Part shown: in pieces, positions 5,554 through 42,223 of the stretch
Layout: each line of letters starts with the position of its first letter
Position numbering within the stretch: the stretch's first letter is position 1
Source of the DNA: a virus
Virus record (IMG/VR): IMGVR_UViG_3300006919_000113
Span: 1 to 42,223 of that record
DNA: 42,223 nucleotides
Strand: one strand, 5' to 3'
Position numbers and translations under genes: made by a program
The notes under the pieces: model-generated
The model's input: only the letters and a program-made list of their open reading frames with translations
What the model was told of the DNA's origin: nothing
Database searches by the model: none

Positions 5554-6332
5554 CAGAAGGTGTAGGTGTCGTGGTTGATCATGTCTGGGTTGACCGGGCG
5601 GTCATGGACAGTGGCGTAACGCTCGTCGCGTAACCAGCGGAAGCAATCGGGCAGCGGTGAGACGAAGCTGTCGCCTGCTGCGTGCTGGTAGGCAATCTCA
5701 GCTTCCAATGCTTCAACGATGGTGTCAGGCGATTGGGTGCGGATCGTCTTCTGCCACTGAGCAAGGGCTTTTGGTTTGGACAGCGAGGTAGCGCGTATGG
5801 GTGCCGAGCGGTACAGATCCCAGAAGCGTTCAAACGCGTCATCGCCTTTCGTTTTTGCCCTGCGCTGAACGGGCTCAAACTCTGCTGCAAACTCGCTTTG
5901 CAGCTTTAAGAGTGGGTTGTTGTTACTGGGTTCTTGTTCAGGTGATCTTGTTAGTGGAGCATTTTTGCTCCGGGTAGGTGGGGCATTTTTGCCGGGGGTA
6001 CCCGGAGCATTTTTGACCCGGGTCATTTTTGACCTAGGTTCTTTTTGCTCCAGGTTCTCCAGCTTCATCCGGTACACCGTCGTGCGTCCGGGACGGGTTT
6101 CTATGCCTATCCAGCCTTCTGTTACAAGTGTGCTCAGGCTACGCTGAACAACCTTTTCGCAAATACCTGTTTCGCGGCTAATTGTGGCTACAGATGCAAA
6201 GCAACCATCTGCAGAATTCCAGCCGTGACGATACAGGCAAGCGTAAACAGCCCAGATCTTGTAATCAGGTTGGCTGTCCATTAAGCCGTATGGGATGATG
6301 GTAAAACCAGCCGAGTGTATGGCAGCCTTCAT
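5553..6332 (-). CDS. Lambda-O-like replication initiator with internal origin
   Basis: Start chosen at the ATG 6330-6332 because AGGAG lies 7 bases upstream, giving 259 aa; an upstream GTG at 6395 would add 21 residues that overlap a terminator. Residues 25-90 form a winged helix-turn-helix (WAVYACLYRHGW, then ATISRETGICEKVVQRSLS, then a GWI wing), as in phage O/Rep proteins. Residues 95-126 are a repetitive linker (KNAP/KMT units) encoded by a DNA iteron array. The C-terminal domain (FERFWDLYRSAP, later 'WLRDERYATV') resembles the DUF-type C-terminus of phage initiators that contact helicase or loader. Position immediately after the first leftward regulator mirrors lambda cro/cII-O. It probably binds the iterons and recruits host DnaB. 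Confidence 0.8.
   Translation of the reverse strand: MKAAIHSAGFTIIPYGLMDSQPDYKIWAVYACLYRHGWNSADGCFASVATISRETGICEKVVQRSLSTLVTEGWIGIETRPGRTTVYRMKLENLEQKEPRSKMTRVKNAPGTPGKNAPPTRSKNAPLTRSPEQEPSNNNPLLKLQSEFAAEFEPVQRRAKTKGDDAFERFWDLYRSAPIRATSLSKPKALAQWQKTIRTQSPDTIVEALEAEIAYQHAAGDSFVSPLPDCFRWLRDERYATVHDRPVNPDMINHDTYTF
5956..6051. repeat. Iteron array, putative origin of replication inside the initiator gene
   Basis: Five imperfect copies of a 14-16 bp unit of the form GGNNC-A-TTTTT-GNNCC occur at 5956-5971, 5980-5994, 6004-6019, 6021-6034 and 6037-6051. The TTTTT cores begin at 5962, 5986, 6010, 6026 and 6042, i.e. spacings of 24, 24, 16 and 16 bp. Copies 1 (GGAGC/GCTCC) and 4 (GGTC/GACC) are perfect dyads. 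The array falls in the linker between the winged-helix and C-terminal domains of the initiator, exactly as the four lambda iterons lie in gene O. Origin function is inferred. Confidence 0.75.
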
Positions 6333-6394
6333 TAGAAGGCTCCTGCGTGAGAAAGGAAACGCATGATAAACTTGCGATGTCGAATGTTCAGTCA

Positions 6395-6428
6395 CGCCTA
6401 GCAGGTGCTCGCCTGCTGGGCGTTTTTT
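6395..6428 (+). terminator. Rho-independent terminator pointing rightward, antisense to the leftward operon
   Basis: An 11-bp stem (CGCCTAGCAGG with CCTGCTGGGCG, one T-G pair) and a 6-nt loop are followed by six T's at 6423-6428. The T-tract is on the + strand, whereas both flanking genes are leftward. Its last bases overlap the stop codon of the 57-aa regulator. The arrangement parallels the terminator of the lambda oop antisense RNA between cII and O. A weak extended -10 (TGATAAACT, 6364-6372) lies upstream. Confidence 0.7.
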
Positions 6429-6600
6429 ATTCTGCCACAGATTTCTTGATTCGTGTTGTCAGCTCCTCCCGCAGGGTGACTGCCTCATCTAGCAGCTGAT
6501 TGATGAAGGCTTTTTGCGAGTGGTAGGAGGGCATGACGGCTTTGATGCGGTCAAGGATGGTGTCGTCGATGGCGACGTTGGTTGCTTTGCCGATGGCCAT
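6427..6600 (-). CDS. Small ribbon-helix-helix-like regulator (first leftward gene)
   Basis: A 57-aa protein from the ATG at 6598-6600 (MAIGKATNVAIDDTILDRIK). The frame is open farther upstream but that part crosses the divergent promoter region. Pattern: a short beta strand (ATNVAIDD), helix (TILDRIKAVMP) and a second helix (QKAFINQLLDEAVTLREEL), consistent with an Arc/MetJ-type fold. As first gene of the leftward transcript, facing a dyad-rich promoter, it is positioned like Cro/cII and may control that region. It is followed by an antisense-oriented terminator and the initiator gene. Family assignment is tentative. Confidence 0.6.
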   Translation of the reverse strand: MAIGKATNVAIDDTILDRIKAVMPSYHSQKAFINQLLDEAVTLREELTTRIKKSVAE

Positions 6601-6605
6601 AAGGG

Positions 6606-6660
6606 GTTGCGCTGTGTGCGGACGCGGTGTAGGGTACACCGAAATCGACCATCGCGCAAC
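6606..6660. promoter_or_regulatory. Concentric dyad with candidate divergent promoters
   Basis: A 7-bp inverted repeat (GTTGCGC 6606-6612, GCGCAAC 6654-6660) and an inner inverted repeat (CGGTGT/ACACCG, 6625-6630 and 6636-6641) share the same centre at 6633. Each outer arm supplies TTGCGC; 17 bp inward are TAGGGT (+ strand, 6630-6635) and TACCCT (- strand, 6631-6636), so two mirror-image promoters may overlap. It is the only divergent intergenic interval in the window. Confidence 0.55.
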
Positions 6661-7272
6661 GTGCTGCCGCCAGTCCAAGGGCTTGAATTTCACCCTGATC
6701 TGCATCGCTACCGCTACCAAGGGCGCTGGCTGCCGTTCAGCGTTTCCAAGGTGACGAACCGCACCACGCCAGAACAAGAAGCGCAGTTTGAACGCACGAA
6801 ACACATCTGGGCACCACGCGGTAACGCCGTCCATGCCTTCTGTGAAGCGATGCTGCTAGGGCAGGAGCTACCGGAAACGGAGTACGGCGACTGGACAGAA
6901 GCGGTGCAGGATTGCTGGCTACTGCGGGATTCTGAGCCGTTAGCAGTGGAGTACCGGCTGTGCGATGCACGGAAGGGCATTGGCGGCAGCTTCGATTTTT
7001 TGCTGCGTACACCTAATAACAAGGTGGTGTTAGGCGATCTGAAGACGGTCGGCAGTGATAGTGCGGTTAGCCAGCGCAAGGCTGCTACGCCACAGCTTGG
7101 TGGGTATCTGGCGATGCTGATCGACCACCACCCAAAGCTGACCGTGGATGCGTGTTACACCGTGGTGATCGGTCCTGGCAGGCATCGGCTTATTAAGAGT
7201 GAACCGGATGAATGCCTTGGTGCATGGGTAGATGCGTGGGATGCGTTCAAGATGACGGAGCTGCCGTTTTGA
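6661..7272 (+). CDS. PD-(D/E)XK exonuclease (RecB/Cas4-like)
   Basis: Start chosen at GTG 6661 (MLPPVQGLEFHPDLHRYRY), giving 203 aa; the longer open frame crosses the promoter dyad. Catalytic features: an RGNAVHAFCE helix (H58, E62), E97, a GGSFDFLL strand with D112, GDLKTV with D126 and K128, and a QLGGYLAML helix with Q145. This order is that of the RecB-type nuclease fold found in phage single-strand annealing recombination exonucleases. With the DUF1071-like protein, SSB and RusA it forms a recombination set that could process replication concatemers. First gene of the rightward operon. A long antisense frame (7030-7635) covers part of it but has no recognisable content. Confidence 0.85.
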   Translation: MLPPVQGLEFHPDLHRYRYQGRWLPFSVSKVTNRTTPEQEAQFERTKHIWAPRGNAVHAFCEAMLLGQELPETEYGDWTEAVQDCWLLRDSEPLAVEYRLCDARKGIGGSFDFLLRTPNNKVVLGDLKTVGSDSAVSQRKAATPQLGGYLAMLIDHHPKLTVDACYTVVIGPGRHRLIKSEPDECLGAWVDAWDAFKMTELPF

Positions 7273-7460
7273 GCGATCTTGATTGGAACGCCATCTTTGA
7301 GCGTCGATCTGATCTGGCACCGCCGGGGTATCACGAGGCAGTGCAGCAGGCGCACGAGGATTCCAAGCGGCGTTACGAGCTTCAAGGACGTAAGCGTGCT
7401 GGCAGTAGCGGGCGCAGTAAGGGCGGTCAGTTTCCTGGACTAAAGCATGGGGCAACATGA
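7269..7460 (+). CDS. Small hypothetical protein (63 aa)
   Basis: Starts with TTG at 7269-7271, overlapping the exonuclease TGA as TTGA; an upstream ATG would lie wholly in the exonuclease. Protein MSDLDWNAIFERRSDLAPPG..., charged and helical, with a basic Gly/Ser-rich tail (RKRAGSSGRSKGG). No known domain. Coupling to the exonuclease suggests co-expression; the basic tail hints at nucleic-acid contact but that is speculation. Confidence 0.55.
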   Translation: MSDLDWNAIFERRSDLAPPGYHEAVQQAHEDSKRRYELQGRKRAGSSGRSKGGQFPGLKHGAT

Positions 7461-7569
7461 ACCAATGTTGAAACTGTCCCGCTTGTGTGGGATCTAGGTT
7501 GTTTTTGCTCTGATTCCAGCCATACTGGCTTTGCCGGCAAGAAACGGCACACAACCGCCCATCGCGCTT

Positions 7570-7770
7570 ATGACCGAATCTGACACTTACTGGACATTCG
7601 CCACCGCCTATCAACACGGTGGTGGTTTTATGCAAGCGTTAGCCCAAGCAGGAATGCGTGCTGATCCGCAAAATAAAAGTCGCATTCTTGTCGCATTCCC
7701 TGAACTGATCGACCTTTACGGTCCTACAACCAAACTGCACACACAACTTCGCTCAGGAGCTTCTAACTAA
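7570..7770 (+). CDS. Small hypothetical protein (66 aa)
   Basis: ATG at 7570-7572 is preferred (MTESDTYWTFATAYQHGGGF) over the upstream ATG at 7531. The product is 66 aa, mixed aromatic and helical, with a FPELIDLYGPTT segment, and looks like a small globular early phage protein. The gap 7461-7569 before it holds no other gene; a weak -35/-10 pair (TTGTTT 7499, CATACT 7521) is possible. It shares one base with the next gene (TAATG). Function unknown. Confidence 0.55.
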   Translation: MTESDTYWTFATAYQHGGGFMQALAQAGMRADPQNKSRILVAFPELIDLYGPTTKLHTQLRSGASN

Positions 7771-8024
7771 TGACCAGCCCCACCCTTCCGCATTTCACCA
7801 AGCTGTCACCTACAGCTAGCCAGTCATTCTCTGCTACACCGGCACCCGTAGCCGCACGTCGTCAACCGCGTGCGCGTAAACAGCGCAAGCACAACAAAAC
7901 CCTTAACCTCGTCAACAACTTCATCTGCTTTCTGTTTGCTGCGACTGTCTTCGCCATGATTGGCATTGAAGCCAGCGGCCACCACGGCAGCACCCACAGC
8001 GGCACACAAGAGGTTCAGCGGTGA
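7770..8024 (+). CDS. Small single-pass membrane protein (84 aa)
   Basis: An 84-aa frame with a Ser/Thr/Pro N-terminus, a strongly basic stretch (AARRQPRARKQRKHNK, about 28-43) and then one hydrophobic segment (FICFLFAATVFAMIGIEA, about 51-68) followed by a short His-rich tail. By the positive-inside rule the long basic N-terminus stays cytoplasmic. ATG overlaps the previous TAA by one base. No family recognised. Early cyanophage operons often carry such membrane proteins of unknown role. Confidence 0.6.
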   Translation: MTSPTLPHFTKLSPTASQSFSATPAPVAARRQPRARKQRKHNKTLNLVNNFICFLFAATVFAMIGIEASGHHGSTHSGTQEVQR

Positions 8025-8164
8025 ATCCTTACAACTTGACTTGGCAAACGCGGCTATTGTTCTGGCTGCTATCTAAGCGCCCAGACGTAGACGCTATCAA
8101 CCTATCCACACCGACTGATCACCTCAACCGCTGCTTACTGCACACAAGCATTACACGCCAATGA
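8021..8164 (+). CDS. Very small hypothetical protein (47 aa)
   Basis: GTG-started frame (GTGA overlap with the previous stop at 8021-8024) encoding MNPYNLTWQTRLLFWLLSKR... and ending at a TGA that overlaps the next ATG (ATGA, 8161-8164). Perfect coupling on both sides supports it. An amphipathic aromatic N-terminus (RLLFWLLSKR) might associate with membrane. No known family. Confidence 0.5.
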   Translation: MNPYNLTWQTRLLFWLLSKRPDVDAINLSTPTDHLNRCLLHTSITRQ

Positions 8165-8364
8165 ACTTCCGTAATGTCGTCAAGTCTGTTCCTAGTGAGC
8201 TGATCTTTACCGGCTACACATGGGAAACTACGCGTGAGCATTATTTTATGCGGCACGCTAACTGGTCAAAAGCCAGTGAGGTGCGTGAGTTACGGAAGTT
8301 ATACGCTGCTCGCCTCTGGGATGAATGCGGCATTAGCGTTGACCTTGAAGAGGGTTTTCAATGA
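8161..8364 (+). CDS. Small hypothetical protein (67 aa)
   Basis: MNFRNVVKSVPSELIFTGYTWE..., 67 aa, helical C-terminal half (KASEVRELRKLYAARLWDE). Coupled at both ends by ATGA overlaps. No recognised domain; charged composition suggests a soluble cytoplasmic protein. Confidence 0.55.
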   Translation: MNFRNVVKSVPSELIFTGYTWETTREHYFMRHANWSKASEVRELRKLYAARLWDECGISVDLEEGFQ

Positions 8365-8555
8365 AACGGCTTTGGCGCATCATTCGGCATCTTGCTCTGC
8401 GTTTCCTTGCTTTGTTTGATCGTATCCCTGCTGAGGATTGCATCACGTTTGATCCAATGCAGCGGTACATGCTGGACAGCGAATCTGAGTGGCAAGTTGC
8501 TTACTTGGAGTATTGCTGGCAGTTAGACGCTGCACGGCATTATTACGAACAGTGA
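8361..8555 (+). CDS. Small hypothetical protein (64 aa)
   Basis: MKRLWRIIRHLALRFLALFD... gives a basic amphipathic N-terminal helix that could bind membrane, followed by an acidic/aromatic region (DSESEWQVAYLEYCWQ). The start overlaps the previous stop (ATGA). The same reading frame stays open for 45 codons past its TGA (to 8693), which may represent a separate small gene. Confidence 0.5.
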   Translation: MKRLWRIIRHLALRFLALFDRIPAEDCITFDPMQRYMLDSESEWQVAYLEYCWQLDAARHYYEQ

Positions 8556-8582
8556 TGTTGGGGCATAGCGGAGCAATTTCCA

Positions 8583-8693
8583 TTGGTTGTTCGGCTTGCT
8601 GCCTGCGTAGGGGATGCCACTGGTCGGGCTATCTGGTGGATTCGGACTCCCAAACGCATGAAGCCAAAGGTTCCCAGCGTGGAGACGGTGTAG
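8583..8693 (+). CDS. Possible small gene in frame downstream of a TGA
   Basis: After the TGA at 8553-8555 the same frame continues to a TAG at 8691-8693. Its peptide contains GDATGRAIWWIRTPKRMKPK, which has coding-like composition. Only a TTG (8583-8585) offers a start. It may be a remnant, a TTG-started 36-aa protein, or the result of a mutation that introduced the TGA. Bases 8694-8790 hold no further gene. Confidence 0.25.
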   Translation: MVVRLAACVGDATGRAIWWIRTPKRMKPKVPSVETV

Positions 8694-8790
8694 TTCCGTA
8701 GGGTGCGTTCTCCCTGTTAGAGGCACCGTTTAAGCAGCCTTCCGCTTGTAAGTCCCCTATCAACTAGATCTACACACTACGAGGTTCAAC

Positions 8791-8979
8791 ATGGATGAAC
8801 ATTTCTACTCTTGGGAGCTTCTGGATGCTGATGGCGAATGGCAAGCTGGCGGGCAAGCCAATGCCCTTGAAGATGTAAGGCGTGAGGGATACCGATACCT
8901 CATGCAGTACAACGCGGAAGCACCCCACAAACTGGTCATCACAGAGCACATCACGCGGCTAGTGGCGGAGGTGGTGTGA
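8791..8979 (+). CDS. Small hypothetical protein (62 aa)
   Basis: ATG preceded by GAGG seven bases upstream (ACGAGGTTCAAC). Product MDEHFYSWELLDADGEWQAGG..., acidic, alpha/beta, no cysteines. Reads like the small fold 'W.L.D..G.W..GG.A.ALEDV' seen in several phage hypothetical proteins with a single three-stranded sheet. Function unknown. Confidence 0.55.
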   Translation: MDEHFYSWELLDADGEWQAGGQANALEDVRREGYRYLMQYNAEAPHKLVITEHITRLVAEVV

Positions 8980-9013
8980 CGCCAATCAGAACCCAGTAGT
9001 CAACATCACTTCT

Positions 9014-9136
9014 ATGTCTGAACTTTCACCCGCTGCTTTTGCTGTAGTTGATGCGTTTGTTTGCGCCCATGCCAGAAAGAGCGGCCCATCATCCAATGCT
9101 GACATCGCCGCCGCCCTGCGTGCTGTTGCGGATTAG
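9014..9136 (+). CDS. Very small helical protein (40 aa) of a type common in cyanophages
   Basis: ATG at 9014-9016; MSELSPAAFAVVDAFVCAHA... ending with IAAALRAVAD. Short proteins of the pattern 'LSPAAQAVLDAF ... AIAAALRAAAD' recur in Synechococcus phages, and this one matches both ends though it is short in the middle. It is too small for most gene finders. Function unknown; helix-only. Confidence 0.5.
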   Translation: MSELSPAAFAVVDAFVCAHARKSGPSSNADIAAALRAVAD

Positions 9137-9178
9137 GTGGTGCCCACGCCACTTCGCCCTGACGACTCTTGTTGCGAC

Positions 9179-9241
9179 ATGAATACTGCAGCCATACGCG
9201 CCGAAATCCTCGCCATCGCTAATGAGCTTGAAACCCAGTAG
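9179..9241 (+). CDS. Doubtful 20-aa frame in the gap before dCTP deaminase
   Basis: MNTAAIRAEILAIANELETQ, ATG 9179 to TAG 9241. It resembles the C-terminal helix of the preceding small-protein type. The 12-bp sequence AACCCAGTAGTC that contains its stop is repeated at 8990-9001, suggesting local duplication. Apart from this the interval 9137-9279 shows no gene. Confidence 0.2.
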   Translation: MNTAAIRAEILAIANELETQ

Positions 9242-9279
9242 TCCGATCAACTAAATTCAAAGCCTGTTCTAATCAAACA

Positions 9280-9810
9280 ATGACCATCCTCTGCGACTAC
9301 GAGATCAAAGCACTCTGCACCGATGGCATGGTGCAAAACTACGATGAGGCACTGGTCAATCCTGCCAGCCTTGATTTACGCCTAGGCGACACGATCATGG
9401 TTGAGTCTGCAGAAAGACTAGACATGCGCCCGCTAAGCATTGCAGGCAACACCGCAGACAATCCCTACGAGCTAAAGCCTGGGCAGTTCATCCTTGCTCA
9501 AACCATCGAAGTGTTCAACATGCCAGAAAACATTGCTGGCTTATTCTTCCTGAAGTCGAGCCGCGCTAGGGAAGGGTACGAAAACCTGCACGCTGGCTAT
9601 GCGGATCCTGGTTGGCATGGCAGCGTGTTGACGCTAGAGCTGAAGAACAGTCGTCAGCTACTGCCGCTGCCGCTGTATCCCGGCATGAAGATCGGTCAGA
9701 TGGTGTTTTTCCGCATGAGCAACCCGCCTGTGGTCAGCTACGCCAAGGTCGGGCATTACAACCAAGATTTGAGCACGACCGGATCAAAGCAGCTCGACCA
9801 GCAGGGCTGA
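9280..9810 (+). CDS. dcd: dCTP deaminase
   Basis: A 176-aa member of the dCTP deaminase/dUTPase superfamily. Features: NPASLDLRLGD near residues 27-37, an SSRAREG substrate loop (about 92-98), HAGYADPGWHGSVLTLEL with the catalytic-type glutamate (about 103-120), and PGMKIGQMVFF. A trimeric beta-barrel enzyme converting dCTP to dUTP (or, in bifunctional forms, to dUMP), feeding dTTP synthesis for phage DNA. No thymidylate synthase is seen nearby. Intact length. The early operon position fits nucleotide metabolism. Confidence 0.9.
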   Translation: MTILCDYEIKALCTDGMVQNYDEALVNPASLDLRLGDTIMVESAERLDMRPLSIAGNTADNPYELKPGQFILAQTIEVFNMPENIAGLFFLKSSRAREGYENLHAGYADPGWHGSVLTLELKNSRQLLPLPLYPGMKIGQMVFFRMSNPPVVSYAKVGHYNQDLSTTGSKQLDQQG

Positions 9811-9847
9811 GCAGTCCTTTTCAATTTGTTTCAGGGGTGGATCGCCC

Positions 9848-9900
9848 TTGCTTTCCACCCATTTTGGTGCCATAATGGACCCATGAGGCACCAAGCCTCA
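9848..9900 (+). promoter_or_regulatory. Promoter with two overlapping inverted repeats
   Basis: TTGCTT (9848-9853), 17-bp spacer, CATAAT (9871-9876, five of six to TATAAT). Around the expected start site lie GGTGCC/GGCACC (9866-9871 and 9887-9892) and TGAGGC/GCCTCA (9884-9889 and 9895-9900). These could be operator dyads or a 5' hairpin. It drives the gene pair starting at 9923. Confidence 0.55.
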
Positions 9901-9922
9901 CGCCCAACGCGCATTCAGTCCC

Positions 9923-10108
9923 ATGATCACTACCACTGCCGTATGGCTCCTTGCTCTACTGCTGCTGCCACTGCTCCTGATCTGGCACTTCAGTAAATCC
10001 AAGGCGCAACGCATTACAGAACAACGCCAGCGCGGCTGGACCTGGAAGCAGGTAGCCGAATACTGGCATTGCTCTCCATCAACTGCCCGCCGCTGGGCTA
10101 CTGCATGA
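9923..10108 (+). CDS. Membrane-anchored helix-turn-helix protein (61 aa)
   Basis: Residues 6-21 are a hydrophobic helix (AVWLLALLLLPLLLIW). A basic linker (HFSKSKAQRITEQRQR) follows, then a compact HTH of the Hin/Tc1/resolvase-like class (GWTWKQVAEYWHCSPSTARRW). Such HTHs usually bind DNA; tethering one to the membrane in a 61-aa protein is unusual. It is the first gene after a good promoter and is ATGA-coupled to another small membrane protein. It could be a membrane-linked regulator or a DNA-membrane anchor; neither is demonstrated. Confidence 0.65.
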   Translation: MITTTAVWLLALLLLPLLLIWHFSKSKAQRITEQRQRGWTWKQVAEYWHCSPSTARRWATA

Positions 10109-10287
10109 AACACACCGTTCGCTTACAGCGCGGGCTGTACGTCTTGATGGATTCCTACTCTCGCCCATCACTACGTCGCAGCTTGCCCTTTTTCTTCTGC
10201 CTAGCAGCAGTCCTAACAGCAGGTATCACCCTGCAGTACATCGAGCAACAGCAACTACTCTGCCCCACTGCACAACGCGCACAATGA
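10105..10287 (+). CDS. Small membrane protein (60 aa)
   Basis: Start at the ATG 10105-10107 that overlaps the previous TGA (ATGA). MKHTVRLQRGLYVLMDSY..., basic N-terminus, then one transmembrane helix (LPFFFCLAAVLTAGITL, about 30-46) and a short C-terminal tail with one Cys. Coupled to the HTH-membrane protein upstream and to the next gene downstream (ATGA at 10284). Unknown function; possibly partner of the upstream protein. Confidence 0.55.
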   Translation: MKHTVRLQRGLYVLMDSYSRPSLRRSLPFFFCLAAVLTAGITLQYIEQQQLLCPTAQRAQ

Positions 10288-10598
10288 CCACCGCCAAGGA
10301 TCTGATCAACGAACTCGTAGCCCTGCGTGCTGAACGCGATGATCTAGACGCCCGTGAAGCGTTCCTCAAAGATCAACTACAGGGTGCCATCGCATTAGGC
10401 GAGCTTGATAGCTACGAAACCGATGATGGCACCTATGAGTTTGACAACGCGAAATACATCCGCTGCACACGCAACAGCTACAAGCACAGCAAAGAAGCTG
10501 AGAAGGCTATCCGCACCATTAAAGAACAAGACATTGACGCTGGACTTGCCCAGCGAAACGTGACAATCTACTACCAGCTTCGTATGACGCAATCATGA
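10284..10598 (+). CDS. Hypothetical protein with N-terminal coiled coil (104 aa)
   Basis: MTTAKDLINELVALRAERDD... forms a heptad-like helix to about residue 38, followed by an alpha/beta part (YETDDGTYEFDNAKYIRC) and a charged C-terminus. Phage small proteins with this layout occur in siphophages of Synechococcus. Coupled by ATGA on both sides. Function unknown. Confidence 0.6.
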   Translation: MTTAKDLINELVALRAERDDLDAREAFLKDQLQGAIALGELDSYETDDGTYEFDNAKYIRCTRNSYKHSKEAEKAIRTIKEQDIDAGLAQRNVTIYYQLRMTQS

Positions 10599-11086
10599 GC
10601 AAGCCAAAGCCGCTACCTCCGCTTTCCAGGTTAGATGAACTTTTTGAAGTTCGGGATGGATGGCTTTTTAACCGAATAGGAAGGCACAAAGCTGCCGCCG
10701 GCAGCCGAGCTGGTACATTGCATAAACAATCTGGATACTGGTTTGTTGGAGTTGATTATCAAAGATACAAGATTCATCGAATTATCTGGGCAATGGTAAA
10801 CAGAAAAGATCCAGGTGATCTTGTTATTGATCACATTGATCGAAACAAGCAAAACAATAATCCGGAAAATTTGAGGGCAGTGACCAAAAGATTAAACGCG
10901 CTAAATACTGATTTTTACAGAGACAATTCATCTGGCGCTAGAGGAGTTTGCTGGCAAGCAAGAGATAGGCGATGGGCTGCTTACGCTAAAGAAAACAATA
11001 GAACAGTATGTTTAGGTTATTTCAAAGAAAAAGATGATGCGATTACGGCTCGCCAAAACTGGGAAGAACGTCAGTGGGCAGAATGA
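10595..11086 (+). CDS. HNH endonuclease with AP2-like DNA-binding tail
   Basis: A 163-aa protein. The HNH core is HRIIWAMVNRKDPGDLVIDH followed by IDRNKQNNNPENLRAVT (residues about 68-105), with the paired histidines and asparagines. The C-terminal SSGARGVCWQ...WAAYA...LGYFKEKDDAITA region is an AP2/integrase-type DNA-binding module. This domain pair is typical of free-standing homing-type endonucleases. The gene is visibly AT-richer than its neighbours, a sign of separate origin, yet is joined to both neighbours by ATGA overlaps. Confidence 0.85.
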   Translation: MSKPKPLPPLSRLDELFEVRDGWLFNRIGRHKAAAGSRAGTLHKQSGYWFVGVDYQRYKIHRIIWAMVNRKDPGDLVIDHIDRNKQNNNPENLRAVTKRLNALNTDFYRDNSSGARGVCWQARDRRWAAYAKENNRTVCLGYFKEKDDAITARQNWEERQWAE

Positions 11087-11526
11087 ATAATTCACTTGTT
11101 TTTACTGTTTACGGCATACCAGGAGCCCAAGGCAGCAAGAGATACGTTGGTCGTGGGATCATGGTTGAATCTAGTAAAAAAGTAAAACCGTGGCGCCAAG
11201 ACATCCGATACACAGCATTAGACATTAAACCTGCCGATTGGGATACATCTGTCCCAATGGCGCTATCAGTTGTCTTTTTGTTTCAAAGACCCAAATCACA
11301 CTATGCCAAAAAAGGACTGCGTTCGACCGCCCCCACCCACTGCACGTCTGCATCACTTGGTGACATTGACAAGCTTTTGCGTAGCACCAACGATGCTCTT
11401 ACTGGTATTCTTTTTGATGATGATCGCCAAGTCGTTTCGGTCAATGCTCAGAAACGCTACTGCGTTGGAACCGAGCAGCCCGGCGCTCTCATCGTGCTCA
11501 CTGCGCTTACACCCAACGCCTCATGA
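11083..11526 (+). CDS. rusA: RusA-family Holliday junction resolvase
   Basis: Start taken at ATG 11083 (MNNSLVFTVYGIPGAQGS), which forms an ATGA overlap with the HNH gene; product 147 aa. RusA signatures: N-terminal beta strand with GIPGAQGSKR, then GDIDKLLRSTNDALTGILFDDD near residues 91-112 containing the invariant acidic residues, and a VVSVNAQKRY strand. RusA dimers cut four-way junctions and would resolve recombination intermediates before packaging. Intact. Confidence 0.88.
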   Translation: MNNSLVFTVYGIPGAQGSKRYVGRGIMVESSKKVKPWRQDIRYTALDIKPADWDTSVPMALSVVFLFQRPKSHYAKKGLRSTAPTHCTSASLGDIDKLLRSTNDALTGILFDDDRQVVSVNAQKRYCVGTEQPGALIVLTALTPNAS

Positions 11527-12224
11527 CTTACCCTAACCTCGCGGGCGTCATCACAAAAGATGACGTATTCCGTAAAGGGACTGGATCCTACGCAGCCGAT
11601 TACGTTAGCTGGGCGAGGATTGCTAATCACTTGCACACCAAAGCTCCTGGCTGGGAGTTTGCCTTGCGTGAAGCGCCTGATGGCGGTCACGTCTGGAAAG
11701 CGCCTGACGGCACTGGTTACATCATGGGTTATTTCACAGGACCCGAAGATGAAACCACAGTCTGCTTTCCTTATCCCTGCCAAGATCACCGCAATCAGCC
11801 TATTCAATACGATAAGGTTTCCTGTCGTGTTTTGACCGATACTCACCGCCGTGGGTTATGCGCTGCTGCTGCTTATTTCTTTAGCCTCGGTTTCGAATTG
11901 TGGGCGAAGGAAGAAGTAGCTGAAGCAGCAAAAACAGAGCCAGAATCAACAACTGTTGCGCCTGCTCCTGCTGCCAAGCAAAAGCCTGCAGCCGCTGCTA
12001 CAAAGGAAGAACCGGCACCAGAGCTTGACCCTGAAGAACTCCCTATTACAGACAAAGATCTCAAGTCGATCCGTGATCTGTTAGCTGCTGAACCTGTTGT
12101 TAAACGCAACAAGATCATCAAGGAGTTTAACAAAGAGTTTGCGGTGCCAGAAGGTGAGCTAATGACTGCTCACATCACGCTCCCTAAACACCTGTTGTTT
12201 ATCCAAGAGCGACTGTCCACCTAA
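11523..12224 (+). CDS. DUF1071/Sak3-like annealing protein candidate
   Basis: A 233-aa protein. Residues 1-130 contain SYAADYVSWARIANHL, 'VWKAPDGTGYIMGYF', and RRGLCAAAAYFFSLGFELWA, the layout of phage DUF1071-type single-strand annealing proteins (SYLSWA...; ...LVKAIA..GLGLYLW). After an Ala/Pro/Glu-rich linker (about 140-180) a separate helical domain ends the protein. It sits between RusA and SSB in the same operon. It would anneal complementary ssDNA with the exonuclease encoded at 6661. Moderate confidence; a pure hypothetical label is the alternative. Confidence 0.6.
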   Translation: MTYPNLAGVITKDDVFRKGTGSYAADYVSWARIANHLHTKAPGWEFALREAPDGGHVWKAPDGTGYIMGYFTGPEDETTVCFPYPCQDHRNQPIQYDKVSCRVLTDTHRRGLCAAAAYFFSLGFELWAKEEVAEAAKTEPESTTVAPAPAAKQKPAAAATKEEPAPELDPEELPITDKDLKSIRDLLAAEPVVKRNKIIKEFNKEFAVPEGELMTAHITLPKHLLFIQERLST

Positions 12225-12239
12225 ACCCACGGTAGTGCC

Positions 12240-12455
12240 ATGACGGATGAGATGATGCACGCGCAAATGGCAGCCGCTTACGCTGCACAACGCAACATCA
12301 TGAAGCCTCATCTCCCTGCTGATCTTGACTTACTGCCACCGCACCTGCGTTCGCAGTTGGAGCACTTTATGCAGGCACGTCAGTACACACCGCAACAAGC
12401 TCTTTCAATTATCCTTTCCAAGTTCTTCGGCTCATGCTCCAAATTACCGCAGTAG
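12240..12455 (+). CDS. Small hypothetical protein (71 aa)
   Basis: MTDEMMHAQMAAAYAAQRNIM..., Met/Ala/Gln-rich helical protein, overlapping the SSB start by 22 bp. A C-terminal segment (YTPQQALSIILSKFF) looks like a short helical hairpin. No recognised family. The overlap with ssb suggests coupled expression. Confidence 0.5.
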   Translation: MTDEMMHAQMAAAYAAQRNIMKPHLPADLDLLPPHLRSQLEHFMQARQYTPQQALSIILSKFFGSCSKLPQ

Positions 12456-12772
12456 GCAACCTTGCCGCTGACCCTGAACTGAAAACCGTTGGTGATCGTG
12501 AAGTCGCTAACTTCACCCTGATGGTGAACAAAAAGGTTAAAGGGGAAGACCGCACAACAGCTCTGCGCTGTGCTGTATGGGGTCCACGCGCCAAGGTTGT
12601 TGATGATTACCTGACCAAAGGCAGTCAAGTCACCGTGACCGGGCAGGCTTACATCGAAACGTTTGAGCGTAAAGATGGCAGCCCTGGTGCATCTCTTGAT
12701 GTAGCCGTCAACGACTTCACGTTGCCCCCACGACCCAAGGCTGTAGCAGACGATGATTCAATGCCGTTCTGA
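12434..12772 (+). CDS. ssb: Single-stranded DNA-binding protein
   Basis: A 112-aa OB-fold protein: MLQITAVGNLAADPELKTVG at the start, FTLMVNKKV, an RCAVWGPRA strand, YLTKGSQVTVTGQAYIETF, and an acidic C-terminal tip DDDSMPF that matches the bacterial SSB protein-interaction tail. The linker is almost absent, so it is a minimal phage SSB. It coats ssDNA during replication/recombination and can recruit host RecG, PriA, RecO-type partners through its tip. Confidence 0.93.
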   Translation: MLQITAVGNLAADPELKTVGDREVANFTLMVNKKVKGEDRTTALRCAVWGPRAKVVDDYLTKGSQVTVTGQAYIETFERKDGSPGASLDVAVNDFTLPPRPKAVADDDSMPF

Positions 12773-12785
12773 GCTGTAACAGGCT

Positions 12786-12814
12786 TTGCAGTTCGGCTGA
12801 TTCTGCATTACCCT
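12786..12814 (+). promoter_or_regulatory. Candidate promoter for the sigma-factor gene
   Basis: TTGCAG (12786-12791), 17-bp spacer, TACCCT (12809-12814). The -10-like hexamer is the same as that on the - strand of the divergent promoter at 6631-6636, and the -35 begins TTGC in both. It differs clearly from a host TATAAT. The predicted start would place the hairpin at 12819 in the 5' leader. Confidence 0.4.
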
Positions 12815-12818
12815 ACTC

Positions 12819-12845
12819 GGGGGCTAACCGCCCCCTTTCTTTTGT
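12819..12845 (+). terminator. Rho-independent terminator between ssb and the sigma gene
   Basis: Stem GGGGGC/GCCCCC (12819-12824 with 12830-12835) with a TAACC loop and a T-rich tail TTTCTTTTGTT. It would end or attenuate transcription coming from the recombination genes, isolating the sigma gene, whose ATG is five bases further on. Confidence 0.7.
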
Positions 12846-12849
12846 TCTA

Positions 12850-13770
12850 ATGTCAGACACGCTGCGCGACTACCTCAATCAGATCGGCAAAATCCCTTTG
12901 CTAACTGGCGCAGAGGAGATTGAGCTAGGTCACGCCATTAAGCGGATGGATCAAATCTGCAGCGATCAACCGACTAAAGCAGAGCAACGCATCATCAAAA
13001 TCGGTAGGCGCGCTAAAGATCGCATGATCAAAGGCAACCTACGTCTTGTTGTAGGTGTCGCCAAGAAATACAAGCACATGACAAACCGCCTTACCATGCA
13101 CGATCTTGTGCAGGAAGGCAACATCGGTTTGATCCGTGCCGTAGAACTGTTTGACCCTGAGCGTGGGTATAAGTTCAGCACCTACGCGTATTGGTGGATT
13201 CGGCAAGGCATCATGCGTGCTATTCAAGTGCAGGATCGCATGATCAAACTGCCGTCTGGTGCTACTGATGCACTGCGCAAAGTGCGCACATTTACGCTTG
13301 AATATAACCGCGTGCATGGCATCAATCCAAGTATTGAGCAGTGCGCTGAATTTGCCAATATCACGCCACGAGCAATGAAAGATTATCTGGCAGCTTCTAT
13401 TGATGCCGCTAGCTTAGATGCTCAGGTCAACAGCTCCGGTGAGGCTAGTACATACATCGAACTGATCGCGGCACACGATGATCCAGTAGGAGAAGACCTA
13501 GAACAGGACACCAAGATAGAAGCCGTACAACAAGCATTAGATCATATGAGTGACTTAAGCAGACAGATCATCGAGCTAAGACACGGACTAAAAGACAACA
13601 ATCCTCGATCAATGCGAGACATTTCTAAAACGCTAGGCATTGCACAAGACACCACTAAACGCAAAGTTCACATCGCTGAAAACGAGATGAAGCTAATACT
13701 AAGGAAGGGACCGCCAAAAAAGCATTCAGCACAGAGCAACAGCTCCAGCTTGATCTGGGGTTGGGGTTAA
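12850..13770 (+). CDS. Sigma-70 family sigma factor (phage-encoded, cyanobacterial type)
   Basis: A 306-aa sigma. Region 1.2: DTLRDYLNQIGKIPLLTGAE (3-22). Region 2: NLRLVVGVAKKY (63-74), HDLVQEGNIGLIRAVELFD (84-102), KFSTYAYWWIRQGIMRAI (108-125). Region 3: about 140-200. Region 4: QALDHMSDLSRQIIELRHGL (228-247) and the HTH SMRDISKTLGIAQDTTKRKV (254-273). The core closely follows cyanobacterial group 1/2 sigmas, but the promoter-reading residues differ: Met122 replaces the Thr equivalent to E. coli T440, and the recognition helix has Gln-Asp where Arg-Glu (R584-E585) normally contact the -35. It could redirect host RNA polymerase to phage promoters. Own promoter and upstream terminator are predicted. 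Confidence 0.93.
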   Translation: MSDTLRDYLNQIGKIPLLTGAEEIELGHAIKRMDQICSDQPTKAEQRIIKIGRRAKDRMIKGNLRLVVGVAKKYKHMTNRLTMHDLVQEGNIGLIRAVELFDPERGYKFSTYAYWWIRQGIMRAIQVQDRMIKLPSGATDALRKVRTFTLEYNRVHGINPSIEQCAEFANITPRAMKDYLAASIDAASLDAQVNSSGEASTYIELIAAHDDPVGEDLEQDTKIEAVQQALDHMSDLSRQIIELRHGLKDNNPRSMRDISKTLGIAQDTTKRKVHIAENEMKLILRKGPPKKHSAQSNSSSLIWGWG

Positions 13771-13773
13771 ACC

Positions 13774-14016
13774 ATGGGCGCAAACAAGATGGGTCCGCCA
13801 TGCCCTGAATGTGGCTGCTTGATTACTGAAGTGCGAACAACTGAACGAGGAGAAGATCGTAGCTTTTGGCGATCACGCAAATGTATCTCTTGCGGGCATC
13901 TGTTTCATACTGTGCAGCAAGGTGAGCTATACGCCATTAAAGGCACTGTTACTTGGCATTGCGAAGGTAAGCTACGCAAGCCGATAATCAACTGGAGGTT
14001 CTATGAAGCGGGATAG
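13774..14016 (+). CDS. Zinc-ribbon protein resembling the NrdR N-terminus
   Basis: An 80-aa protein starting MGANKMGPPCPECGCLITEV with CPxCG and then KCISCGHLFHT, an eight-to-ten residue strand between. This is the layout of the NrdR zinc ribbon, without the ATP-cone. Three bases after the sigma stop. Phage zinc-ribbon proteins of this size act as transcription co-factors (Ogr/Delta-type) or stand-alone DNA binders, so a link with the adjacent sigma is attractive but inferred. Confidence 0.65.
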   Translation: MGANKMGPPCPECGCLITEVRTTERGEDRSFWRSRKCISCGHLFHTVQQGELYAIKGTVTWHCEGKLRKPIINWRFYEAG

Positions 14017-14338
14017 GCTAGCGATTAGCAGGTTTCAATCCGTCGAAACCTATGTTGACTGGTCAGGGCGTGTTTTTATCGCTTACTCTTCCGGTGCTAG
14101 CGTCATCGTGCGTGATGTAAAAGCACTGCGTAAATTCTTGGGCTTAGCCCCGAAAACACCTAGCCGTGAGGCTTTGGAGTCTTGGTTGGTTTCACTCGCT
14201 GCCATAGACGATGAACGGCAAACGCGCAAGACACAGCAGCAGACAGGACTGTCAAAAGAGGTTCTAGAAACGGGTTTTGGTCCTGAGTGCCATCTAGATG
14301 AGTCTGATCCAAATCATCAGACGCGCACTGTGATTTAA
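14003..14338 (+). CDS. Hypothetical protein, last rightward gene (111 aa)
   Basis: MKRDRLAISRFQSVETYVDW..., with a beta-hairpin region (VFIAYSSGASVIVRD) and a helical stretch (KALRKFLGLAPKTPSREALE). Overlaps the zinc-ribbon gene by 14 bp. From 14160 onward it runs through the 3' half of a leftward gene on the other strand, and its last 40 residues are low in coding character (charged, Gln-rich). N-terminal 60 residues look real. Function unknown. Confidence 0.55.
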   Translation: MKRDRLAISRFQSVETYVDWSGRVFIAYSSGASVIVRDVKALRKFLGLAPKTPSREALESWLVSLAAIDDERQTRKTQQQTGLSKEVLETGFGPECHLDESDPNHQTRTVI

Positions 14339-26450: not shown

Positions 26451-29400
26451 TCAAGCACCCGGAAATTGGATTCCGTCAACACGTCATTTGCCACAATGCT
26501 AGCCCCAGTGGCATCAACTGGAACTTCAACGGCTGACACGTTGACCAAGCCATCCTCATCAAGTGTTAGCTGCTCGACTTGGTAGACGCCCTTGCTGATA
26601 GTCTCGCTTAACAGCGTGAACAGCGTGCCGTACAAGCTGCTGTCGTTAACAGCATTGCCGCTGATGGTAATTTCGCGCTCAAGCACGCTGCTATCGGCCG
26701 GGTTGTAAACCATTGCGTTGTAGGTGCCATCAGCGATGGTGCTGATTGAGACGAGCGTGCCAGCGTCAGTGATGGCACCATTGTTGGTGGCGCTGTAGGT
26801 AGTGGCGGACGTGATCACGCGGATGTAAGAGCCAGGTTGGATACCAAGGGCATCGGGCACGGTCTTGAAGCTGACCGTATGAGTGACACGGCGGCGAACA
26901 CTCAACAGGAATCGCGCTGTTCGCAAAGCTTGAGCACGGTTAGTGCAGAAATCGGTGAGATCAAATGCTTGCTGTGTTGTGGCGCGACTGCCCTCAGCAA
27001 TATCGGCCCAGTCCACCAGTGCTGATGCCTGCGTTGGCAGATCGTTCTCGACAGTGACGCGCCAGCTGACCAATGCACGGAAATTGGATCGTTGGGCAGC
27101 GTCGATGTACTGCACTTGCAGGCTGTCGGCAATAATGTTGCCTGCAGTGAAAATCTGTTCAACAGCGACGGGCTGCGTGCTGATCCGGTAGCTGCTGTCA
27201 TAGGGCAGCGCTGGCATCATGCCAAAACGGCCGTTTTTGATGGTGAAATTACAGAGCTGTAGCGCTGCATTGTCGTAAAGAAAAGAGCGGAAGCTTTCGC
27301 TGTCTTCCACTACGCCGTCATAAAAGATCTGATTGGCGCGTTGGAACTTCGCCGCAATGAGAAGCGAGTCTGTGTCAATTAGCTCAGCTGGAACCACATT
27401 GCCGACACCCTGGCTTTTGCTGGTGAGCAAGTAGTAAACCAGATCAGCAAACAGGTTGCTCGGCTTGGTGTCGCCTTCAATCAGGCGTTGCACATTGATG
27501 CCTGTTGGCGTCCACATGCGTATTTGATTTACGCTACCCAGTTGACCGCTTGATTTGACTACAAAGCCAACGGTGGACATTGCGTAATAGCTGGGTTCAG
27601 TTTCATTGTCTACAAACTCGTTGACATAAACAATTTCGTGCTCCGGCCCACCTTCGTTGGACTTTTCGAGCTCTAAGTAATGACTGCAATCTGACACTTG
27701 CGAGGCCTGCTCAAAGATCCTTTCCTCTTTACTGGTCTGATCGCTTGTGTCAGCAGCAGAAGTTGAAGCCTGTAGTGCGCTAACGCGAAACTGAAAATGA
27801 ACTTGGCTATAACCTTCTTGCGTAGCAAACGCATTACTGGTGTTTCTAGTAACGGTAAATCCATCATTGTTGTTCCATGCGCCAGTGGCGCTTACAACCG
27901 CAAACGTGTAATCACGCCAGCCATATTTAGAATTTGAGGCGTTTGTCACTGTCTGCGCCGCACTGCGATACTTAGCACCTTCAACATCACCCAGCGATCG
28001 CGCCCTTACTTTTAATGTGATCTCGCGGTCTCCATTCGGCTTGTAGTGCGTAAACTCCACTTCCCGCCATTGGTTTTTGTAGTCCCATGCATAGCCAAGA
28101 AGCGTTTGCAGCCATGCCTGCTCTCGCAGGCTTTGACTGGAGCCGTTTGTGGCTGTTTGCGTCAAAGAGACTGCGCTAGGAATGTTTGTTTGCACCGGGA
28201 TGACTCCCGCCGGCGCATCAACAAACTCTGCGGCACGAGTTGTTAATTCACCATTAACAAGCAGATCTTGTATTAGTACGTTTTCGCCTGATACTGTTAC
28301 CCGAAACTCTCCGTATGGCGTTGCGTAATCTGCGCCAATGACCGAACCTGTTTGTGCATTTAATCGCGTTGCATAGTTGGTTTCGATGCTGTTAATTGCA
28401 ACATCAGACCCAGTGCGAGGGATAAAGCGATACTCGTAATAGCCTTCCTCTTTTGCGCGAATGCGCAGCCAGTTGTATTGGTTGATGGGGCCTGTGCCTG
28501 TGACGCAGAACAGGCGAGGAATACGCGCCCATTGCTGTAACGGCTCACCATATGCTTGAACGGGTCGCACCCATACAGAAAAACACGAAGTTCTCTTAAA
28601 ATATTTATTCATTACAGGCGTATTTAGCGTAATATCGCGCCGGTCAAAATCTTTTAGTTTGCTAGGGGTAGGAATAGCGTTGAAGTTGCAGAGGCCGTTA
28701 GCGCGATTCCAGACTTGGCTGCGGATGCCAAATTCGATGACTTGGCAATCGCGGCGAACAGGTCTAACTGTTGCCCTGTTGTAACGGCACAAGTTGTAAA
28801 AAGCTGCGCCGCAGTGCTTGTTGGGGTTAAAGGTGTCGCCCTCGTATCCGCCAAGCGGTTCTTCAACAGTGCGCGTACCAGCAATACCTATTTCCGGTAC
28901 GCCGACAATTGCCGCACAGCGCAGTGTAATATCAAGGTTGCCATTTTTGCGCCAAGTAAAGTCGCTGCGTTTTTCGACAACCCACACAGAACTCGAAATA
29001 ATCCACTTGGAGCCAATTTGAAGGAGATCTGATGCTCTTGTGCGCCAAGCATCTGCAGAACTTTGCAGATCGTCTAGGTTGACTTCTACGCCTTTTGCCT
29101 TGAAGCCGTCACTGTCAATAAGATCACGTTTTTCTAGCTCTCTGTAGTTATTGCCGTTAATCCGAAAAACAATCGTATCGCCTTCGCTGATTGTCACTCG
29201 CTGTCTGTTTTGCTGGGCAGCACCGCCAGCAGTTCCGCTATGTGCAACGATTCCCATACGGCGGGAATAGGCGCGACCTACGCCAGGCATCCCACGCTCA
29301 GGCGTGTTGTCGTGAATTACATCCGCTTTACTACCCGCAATTTTGCGTCGCTTAGCAATTAACTCGTAACGTGTGTCTTTATAGTCTTCTCCTTTCGTTG

Positions 29401-36881: not shown

Positions 36882-36996
36882 CGGTAGGTTCCGTGGTCAG
36901 TTCAAGTTTAGGTGCGGGCTCAGCAATAGGAAAAGAGGCTGCCTCCTTAGAAGCAGCCTCACGTTCCTGGCGTCGCCGGAAGGCGAACAAACCCAT
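36799..36996 (-). CDS. Small charged protein (65 aa) overlapping the adaptor gene
   Basis: MGLFAFRRRQEREAASKEAA, SFPIAEPAPKLELTTEPTDG: basic N-terminus then Glu/Pro-rich. Short 'FRRRQER..A..P..K.E.' proteins occur near capsid genes of cyanophages. The start shares a base with the previous stop (36996). The last 27 residues lie in the adaptor gene in another frame and look non-selected, so only the first part is well supported. Confidence 0.5.
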   Translation of the reverse strand: MGLFAFRRRQEREAASKEAASFPIAEPAPKLELTTEPTDGNHNRRNGRGRKRQQLPNAGSSGADH

Positions 36997-41241: not shown

Positions 41242-42223
41242 TCATGCCGGGATTTCTTCGTCAGACTCGTCATCCAACGATTCCTCAGGCATTTGTTGCA
41301 TTGCCCGTGGCTCAGGCTGCGCCATTTCAATCAGCCCGCCGTTTTGCGTAGCCTCCAGTTCCTCTTCTACGTCAAACTCATCACCTAGCACTTCGCCTTC
41401 GCTGAGCTGATCGAGGAGTGTTTTCTGCGTGATAGTGCCAGCGGTGTAAAGCTGCAGTAGCGACTGGATTTCCTGCGGTTCAAGGCGTGAACCAAGGAAG
41501 TCGCGGTTGACGAAGCTACTACCAGCTTCAGGGATGTTTAGGTATTGAGCGTGGTAGAACAGGCAGTTGTCGATCAGATCCTGCATATTTTGAGCGATCA
41601 CCATCATGGTGGAATCACCCTGGCTGCGGTCAATACGCTTAGCCTCGGCAGTTTCAGCCGATAGCTTCTGACCAAGCACAGCAGATAAGCCTAGCTCGTT
41701 GATTTGATAGGCAATCTGCTCTAGGCGTTTGAACTGCGCTTCAAAGCTGTTACCGCTAGGTTCGATGTACTCTGCCCGCCCTTCTGATGGGAAGGCGATA
41801 GCCTCACCAGGACCAGCGGATACTTCCTCGGCGCTAGACGGGAAGCCGAAGAATGCCAGCATCGGCACTGCTGAAATGTGCAGTTGATTATCTAGGTCTG
41901 ATTGGATTTGATACGCCTTGAGGTTTAGCTCCGCGATGTCTTCCATCGGCGGGCGTGATTCCATAAAGTTGACACGATTAGCGTAAGCAACGCTGAAGGG
42001 GATAGCGTCTAGCGTTGTGGTGCCGCTGTCATGGATCTGGAAATCGCCAGACTTTTCATCACGGCGGTGCAGTTCAAAACCACCGGGCGTCAGGACACGC
42101 ACCTGCTCAACTTCCTTTTCGCCGTAAAGCCCATCAGGCACGATTACCTTTTCTAGCAGGCGTAGCTGGCTAAGCTGCTGCGCTCCATCTACCAGCTCTG
42201 TACGCCAACCAAGGATCTCACGC
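41242..42223 (-). CDS. Portal protein, C-terminal part (cut by window end)
   Basis: The frame enters at 42222 without a start; residues include LNLKAYQIQSDLDNQLHISA, VPMLAFFGFPSSAEEV, FPSEGRAEYIEPSGNSFEAQ, GLSAVLGQKLSAETAEAKRI, DRSQGDSTMMVIAQNMQDLI, an acidic C-terminal tail (EESLDDESDEEIPA). These are the wing/stem segments of DUF4055 portals. The first 38 codons repeat, with differences, the last 38 codons of the fragment at 1-582. Followed by a small gene and MuF, the canonical order. Confidence 0.9.
   Translation of the reverse strand, partial: REILGWRTELVDGAQQLSQLRLLEKVIVPDGLYGEKEVEQVRVLTPGGFELHRRDEKSGDFQIHDSGTTTLDAIPFSVAYANRVNFMESRPPMEDIAELNLKAYQIQSDLDNQLHISAVPMLAFFGFPSSAEEVSAGPGEAIAFPSEGRAEYIEPSGNSFEAQFKRLEQIAYQINELGLSAVLGQKLSAETAEAKRIDRSQGDSTMMVIAQNMQDLIDNCLFYHAQYLNIPEAGSSFVNRDFLGSRLEPQEIQSLLQLYTAGTITQKTLLDQLSEGEVLGDEFDVEEELEATQNGGLIEMAQPEPRAMQQMPEESLDDESDEEIPA
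42109..42223. repeat. Diverged terminal overlap with bases 1-115
   Basis: Bases 42109-42223 align without gaps to 1-115, about 83 of 115 identical by eye, encoding 31 of 38 identical portal residues. The alignment stops only because the window ends. It is too divergent for a physical terminal repeat or an exact assembly overlap. Confidence 0.75.

Follow-up and report, generated by a model that had tools for sequence, protein, structure and literature searches.

The window, i.e., the whole stretch of viral DNA that was analysed (42,223 bases), is a siphophage-like genome of roughly 42 kb and carries a gene for a sigma-70 factor at the end of its early operon. The features of the locus are the following:

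12434-12772 (+): ssb, the gene of a single-strand binding protein (Pfam SSB, 1.6e-19), upstream of the sigma gene
12819-12843 (+): intrinsic terminator GGGGGC-N5-GCCCCC-TTTCTTTT between ssb and the sigma gene; its T-run ends 6 nt before the ATG
12850-13770 (+): sigma-70 factor, 306 aa, with regions 1.2, 2, 3 and 4 and a disordered C-terminal tail
13213-13215 (+): codon of Met122, at the position of E. coli T440 (alignments; WWIRQGIMR)
13258-13260 (+): codon of Gly137, at the position of E. coli H455, an extended -10 contact (alignments)
13645-13659 (+): Q266 D267 .. K270 of the region 4.2 recognition helix, in gapless alignment to E. coli R584, E585 and R588
13702-13710 (+): Shine-Dalgarno-like sequence AGGAAGGGA upstream of the heptamer, a possible stimulator
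13716-13722 (+): slippery heptamer A_AAA_AAG, in frame for -1 ribosomal frameshifting (sequence comparison)
13722-13808 (+): -1 frame extension AFSTEQQLQLDLGLGLNHGRKQDGSAMP-stop, giving a predicted frameshift product of 319 aa; the stop codon (13806-13808) is inside the zinc-ribbon gene
13741-13768 (+): predicted 11-bp stem-loop over the dual-coded tail (-15.2 kcal/mol)
13746-13763 (+): beta-clamp-binding-like hexapeptide QLDLGL in the -1 frame (QLQLDLGL from 13740)
13774-14016 (+): NrdR-like zinc-ribbon protein, 80 aa; its start overlaps the -1 extension of the sigma gene

The portal gene is divided between the two ends of the record (1-582 corresponds to profile residues 7-194 and 41242-42222 to residues 159-481), thus the genome is circularly permuted and close to whole. 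No end repeat was found in the window record; end repeats of 84-127 bases, as in closed circles, are present in the relatives G002, G003, G009 and G010. The early module (about 6514-14338, +) contains genes for a dCTP deaminase, RusA, a Sak-type annealing protein, SSB, the sigma factor and the zinc ribbon, and the opposite strand carries the genes for an O-like replication initiator, terminase, capsid, tail and endolysin. Matches of tail proteins are few and mostly involve the cyanosiphophages S-CBS1, S-CBS3 and S-LBS1. Since the best subfamily model of the sigma factor is also cyanobacterial (see below), a cyanobacterial host is likely.

Three other features of this genome must be mentioned. 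An HNH endonuclease gene with a weak AP2 domain (10595-11086, +) has almost no nucleotide match in nine relatives while its flanks match, and is probably a recent mobile insertion. A strong intrinsic terminator (6394-6423, +; 13-bp stem and T-run) is oriented rightward where the leftward O-like initiator gene starts; a comparable terminator is localized at the start of this gene in G002, G007, G008, G009 and G010, an arrangement reminiscent of an OOP-like antisense RNA. The initiator gene also contains three 24-nt repeats in tandem (5954-6055, GCATTTTTGC...GGGT), possibly origin iterons, which appear in relatives in the versions CGACCTGGGT and TTTTTGACC.

In the sigma ORF, the Pfam regions r1.2 and r2 of Sigma70 are well above the cutoff, and r3 and r4 are present below the cutoff; the PHROG match is PHROG 351, sigma factor. 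The best subfamily model is TIGR02997 (cyanobacterial RpoD), with 252 bits for a cutoff of 384.5: judged on this score, the window sigma is a diverged relative of TIGR02997 and not a member. The AlphaFold2 model has a mean pLDDT of 77, with values mostly below 50 for the tail (residues 291-306), and its fold matches in the PDB are primary sigmas (SigA) and RpoS. The window sigma belongs to the sigma-70 family and is group 1/2-like. The initial annotation had described its core as following cyanobacterial group 1/2 sigma factors. Substitutions relative to the relatives are concentrated at third codon positions (0.41 vs. 0.11 and 0.07 at the other two), which indicates a selected gene under strong purifying selection. 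The segment FSTYAYWWIRQ is invariant across the alignment of phage sigmas.

Homologues in S-CBS1, S-CBS3, KBS-S-2A and S-LBS1 have the same genome position as the window sigma, with the early module on one side and the convergent lysozyme/structural module on the other. These cyanosiphophage group 2 sigmas (rpsD4 of S-CBS1 and S-CBS3, RpoD of KBS-S-2A and of S-LBS1) share 33-42% identity with the window sigma over the matched part, but they differ from the window clade (the group of closely related phage sigmas that includes the window gene), whose -35 helix is degenerate and whose zinc-ribbon neighbour is conserved. In IMG/VR scans, relatives were present on well over 100 contigs, and putative sigmas have been listed in 65/153 cyanophages (review, PMC10452541). 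Full-length sigmas, said at first to be rare in siphophages, are on the contrary common in cyanosiphophages. Cyanobacterial group 2 sigmas (Nostoc, Leptolyngbya, plasmid copies of Chroococcidiopsis) also comprise regions 1.2-4, with about 32-37% similarity; unlike the window sigma, these cellular copies stop soon after region 4.2, have no QLxL tail and retain an R/K-E-R helix. On the tree, phage sigmas are separate from the cellular cyanobacterial group 2 copies.

In 30/30 clade members examined, the stop codon of ssb and the ATG of the sigma gene are separated by a GC hairpin with a T-run, whose end is in each case no more than about ten bases from the ATG. For most relatives, only a few bases separate the ssb stop codon from the hairpin, which leaves no room for a promoter, and a consensus scan upstream of the sigma gene gave none. 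A promoter proper to the sigma gene thus has no support, and one placed between the hairpin and the ATG does not fit. Of the isolated promoter and terminator proposed earlier, the terminator is thus strong and conserved and the promoter is unsupported. The simplest reading is that the hairpin would be a partial terminator behind a highly expressed gene and that read-through would yield a smaller amount of the sigma factor. Terminators of this kind are also found after the capsid gene and, for some relatives, after one further structural gene. In the window, an 11-bp terminator hairpin (36935-36960, -) is localized about 460 bases past the end of the capsid gene and is kept in most relatives.

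Regarding the residues expected to read the promoter, the alignments bear out two points made at the outset: Met122 is at the position of E. coli T440, and Gln-Asp (Q266/D267) replaces Arg-Glu in the -35 helix, in gapless alignment with R584/E585. Gly137 at the position of H455 is a further substitution that had not been mentioned. Met occupies the T440 position in every clade member examined. Over 134 phage sigmas, this position is N (38), T (34), S (25), M (13), G (12) or another residue (12), and Met also occurs there in cellular sigmas (Ignavibacterium, Herbaspirillum and others), although these bacterial matches came from a pattern containing Met and prove occurrence, not frequency. Met122 was thus discarded as the key feature: the position varies freely in phage sigmas, and Met122 alone implies no new specificity.

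The recognition helix is variable inside the clade: QD-K in the window, RD-S in L009, QD-A in L013, KE-R in L019 and RE-R in L021 and L026. This points to a -35 contact that is drifting or unimportant rather than to one fixed new specificity. The mean pairwise identity is 0.85 for region 2 vs. 0.42 for region 4.2; in terms of sequence, the half predicted to read the -10 element is conserved and the half predicted to read the -35 element drifts. Such a drift would fit a sigma factor independent of one fixed -35 sequence, and plain relaxed constraint explains it equally well. Two related ideas were rejected: (i) a link between the clamp motif described below and the loss of the -35 residues (16/50 vs. 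41/84 for intact residues, with no signal in phylogenetically independent pairs); (ii) a late promoter motif, since the CTARACT-like words given by 7-mer enrichment on the late strand have no spacing in common and are for the most part orthologous copies of a few sites. Among intergenic words, none was convincing as a shared late promoter.

The 3' end of the gene has quite different properties. A slippery heptamer is kept in frame in 40/40 clade sequences whose site is intact, as A_AAA_AAG (9) or G_GGA_AAG (31) with no intermediates; this total includes the window, and the sequences were collected by a core search and by a search with the three X positions free. With the X positions thus open, only AAAAAAG and GGGAAAG were returned. 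The context is CC[A AAA AAG] in the window and CC[G GGA AAG] at the same place in more distant members: the three X bases change together, PKK becomes PGK (K to G), and the site remains shifty. Both heptamers, the first being the dnaX site, are among the shiftiest in E. coli (PMC5009743). For codons 286-300, compared among 15 clade members, the same codon is used in 90% of same-residue pairs, vs. 40-63% elsewhere in the gene; the silent positions appear frozen here because of the in-frame -1 shift heptamer.

The possible stimulators are less constant. The Shine-Dalgarno-like sequence is good in the subclade of the window and weak in some other relatives. The conserved stem-loop begins 18 nt past the heptamer, i.e., further than is usual for a stimulator, and it was not retained as a proven RNA structure since there are no compensatory changes and no covariation. 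The sigma genes of the clade appear to carry a conserved candidate programmed -1 frameshift site. The heptamers are identical to those of E. coli dnaX and of tail-chaperone (g-t) -1 frameshifting (PMC5009743); in contrast to these cases, the putative shift is in a sigma gene and would change a short C-terminal linear motif.

The peptide encoded by the -1 frame contains QL[DE]LG[LV] in 40/40 of these clade sequences. The core variants ATC/ACC/AAC (codon 302, I/T/N in frame 0) give D/D/E in the -1 frame, and AAC instead of AGC at codon 298 of L295 changes S to N in frame 0 and Q to Q in the -1 frame. In other words, substitutions that change frame 0 are conservative or silent in the putative -1 product. 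The frame-0 tail, SSSL[IT]WGW[GS], is conserved too; the 3' end of the gene is, as far as its substitutions indicate, dual coding, with perhaps a stem-loop besides. When synonymous codons were drawn at random for the given frame-0 protein, QL[DE]L appeared in the -1 frame in 2-4% of draws, a figure that applies to one ancestral event and not to each genome.

The bacterial beta-clamp-binding consensus is QL[S/D]LF, Ser and Asp being the commonest central residues, and E. coli Pol IV uses QLVLGL, in which Gly lets the flanking leucines into the pocket (PMC3716654; PMC9690074). QLDLGL fits both and can be considered as a predicted clamp motif, QLxL being short. A search for DnaN-type proteins found no beta-clamp gene in the window phage and 8 relatives (9 records).

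Comparable motifs are found in frame at the C-terminus of related sigmas: TEQLSLFAA (L141, L143, L147), TQLALFGPLE (L153), GQLALPLV (L155), QQLTLVQ (L090, L096), SQLTLIQ (L094) and, among isolates, LQLPLIP (KBS-S-2A) and LQLVLVEAP (S-LBS1). The KBS-S-2A and S-LBS1 sigmas thus end in QLxL in frame, whereas the motif of the window clade is present only in the -1 frame behind the heptamer. Outside this clade, 36/131 phage sigmas have QLxL in the last 14 residues vs. 0/11 cellular sigmas (these counts include close relatives and are not independent); the background is 3/515 for phage proteins in general, with a slightly stricter pattern. The S-CBS1 and S-CBS3 sigmas have no QLxL tail. On the tree, the frameshift clade has a single origin (SH-aLRT 99) and the motif-bearing sigmas belong to several separate lineages. 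Candidate clamp-binding tail peptides are TEQQLQLDLGLGL, EQLSLFAA and LQLPLIP. It must be noticed that many S-LBS1-type sigmas (L105-L150) have two QLxL, i.e., a QLVLV immediately after region 4 and a C-terminal one. Some of them are devoid of the terminal QLxL and end instead in an unrelated GGFPRNW...GGSW, which may be a reading-frame change.

The zinc-ribbon gene adjoins the sigma gene, as had been noted from the start, and the pair is kept in 16/16 records. The Pfam NrdR zinc-ribbon is found in 16/16 homologues (best E 2.7e-10); a relationship with P2 Ogr/Delta, an idea drawn from the layout only, was abandoned in view of this NrdR type. The zinc-ribbon type switches between near-identical sigmas: in L002, the sigma is 94% identical and the zinc ribbon 42%. 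L022 and L025 also carry different zinc-ribbon types, as if exchanged as a module. The NrdR-like protein may be a partner of the sigma factor.

The initial annotation had proposed a dedicated transcription switch acting on host RNA polymerase. It is very likely that the phage sigma redirects host RNA polymerase; the arguments drawn from single residues and from rarity are mostly weak. The best evidence for a dedicated switch is the frameshift signal together with the clamp-binding-like tail, both absent from that annotation. From the gene, the conserved heptamer, the -1 peptide, the QLxL tails of the relatives and the lack of a detectable clamp gene, we infer ribosome shifting, binding of the peptide to the clamp, late genes as the target and coupling to replication, in the following way. 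The sigma factor would bring host RNA polymerase to phage promoters, probably late ones. A -1 frameshift at A_AAA_AAG (13716-13722) would give a fraction of the sigma another C-terminus with QLDLGL, able to bind the beta clamp of host DNA polymerase III. As the phage has its own initiator and SSB and no clamp was found, host clamps would load on replicating phage DNA; the tailed sigma would tether the polymerase to the clamps left there, and late transcription would need replication. The frame-0 sigma could serve basal transcription, and the frameshifted sigma clamp-dependent late transcription. A probability of roughly 0.55 is given to this two-form sigma, in which the -1 frameshift adds a tail binding the host clamp and ties late transcription to replication.

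The nearest known system is T4 gp55, which is related to sigma-70 and binds the sliding clamp gp45 by a C-terminal motif on a variable linker; T4 late promoters consist of a -10 element only, the -35 contact is dispensable and it is through the clamp that the polymerase is tethered to replicating DNA (PMC7892883, PMC2988020). The window sigma is likewise a sigma-70 family factor; its tail is predicted to be disordered, and the putative clamp motif of the window clade is encoded in the -1 frame only. However, gp55 is a minimal region-2 protein whereas the window sigma has regions 1.2-4 and group 1/2 sigmas as best matches. Moreover, gp55 uses a phage clamp and the co-activator gp33; here, the clamp would presumably be that of the host and the tail would come from putative frameshifting. 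The chances are about even that a phage lineage outside the T4 group has gained replication-coupled late transcription by these means, i.e., a full sigma with a host-clamp tail, its dose set by a -1 frameshift, and relatives carrying the tail in frame.

Other explanations must be weighed against the same data. The window protein could be an ordinary group-2-like phage sigma that competes with host SigA, only the frame-0 protein being of importance and the 3' end being kept for another reason. Group 2 is indeed the annotation of its homologues, and expression of S-CBS3 RpsD4, a sigma devoid of the clamp motif, altered the metabolism of S. elongatus (Sawa et al. 2019, as cited in PMC10452541); the conservation of the frame-0 tail itself also means that selection may act on frame 0 or on the RNA. 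Nevertheless, this leaves unexplained why exactly two shifty forms of the heptamer are found in 40/40 sequences and why related sigmas have QLxL tails in frame, and it is considered unlikely, without being negligible. It is more doubtful still that the slippery site and the stem-loop make the 3' end an RNA element tuning translation of the zinc ribbon, frameshifted ribosomes passing its start and the -1 peptide being a by-product. The -1 frame does cross the zinc-ribbon start codon and stops 33-35 nt inside the gene (13806-13808), and the stem-loop overlaps the tail with a G-rich 3' arm that could be a ribosome-binding site. But compensatory changes are lacking in the stem, and the conservation of the -1 peptide is that of a protein (D/E exchange, synonymous CAG/CAA); the peptide also matches a known motif that is in frame elsewhere. 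The simpler idea that the conserved tail is solely a ribosome-binding site for the next gene was dropped when the -1 frame was read, and persists only within this explanation.

The tail could also occupy the beta clamp of the host and interfere with its replication or repair, with no coupling to transcription. This relies on the same motif evidence as the two-form sigma, and many proteins do share the single clamp site (PMC9690074). Yet the motif is part of a sigma factor, a fusion that T4 gp55 already uses for transcription (PMC7892883), and a phage that seemingly uses the host replisome (O-like initiator, no clamp found) would gain little from a clamp block; this is the least credible of the explanations, and a very improbable one.

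In the open-access literature, no report was found of clamp-binding motifs or frameshifting in sigma factors beyond the T4 group. Such a sigma factor is thus likely to be novel, which is not certain since the search covered few subscription papers. Clamp-activated transcription has been described as unique to T4-related phages (PMC2988020), and further cases have been expected (PMC7892883). If the two-form sigma is real: (i) small cyanosiphophages would apply the T4 principle by means of the host's clamp and a sigma factor that is nearly complete; (ii) a simple peptide tail would suffice to couple transcription to replication; (iii) recoding would have a new use in gene regulation, namely a frameshift that fixes how much of the sigma is tailed; (iv) a route to late-gene timing would be suggested for phages that have few regulators and encode no clamp.

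Heptamers of the same kind are also present elsewhere in these phages. The tail-chaperone-like genes of G002 (7376-7732, in L062) and G009 (27298-27657, in L067) have an A_AAA_AAA heptamer near their end, followed by a -1 extension of about 60 aa (RLSQDSWLFFEFFLATELG...), i.e., the usual tail frameshift of siphophages.
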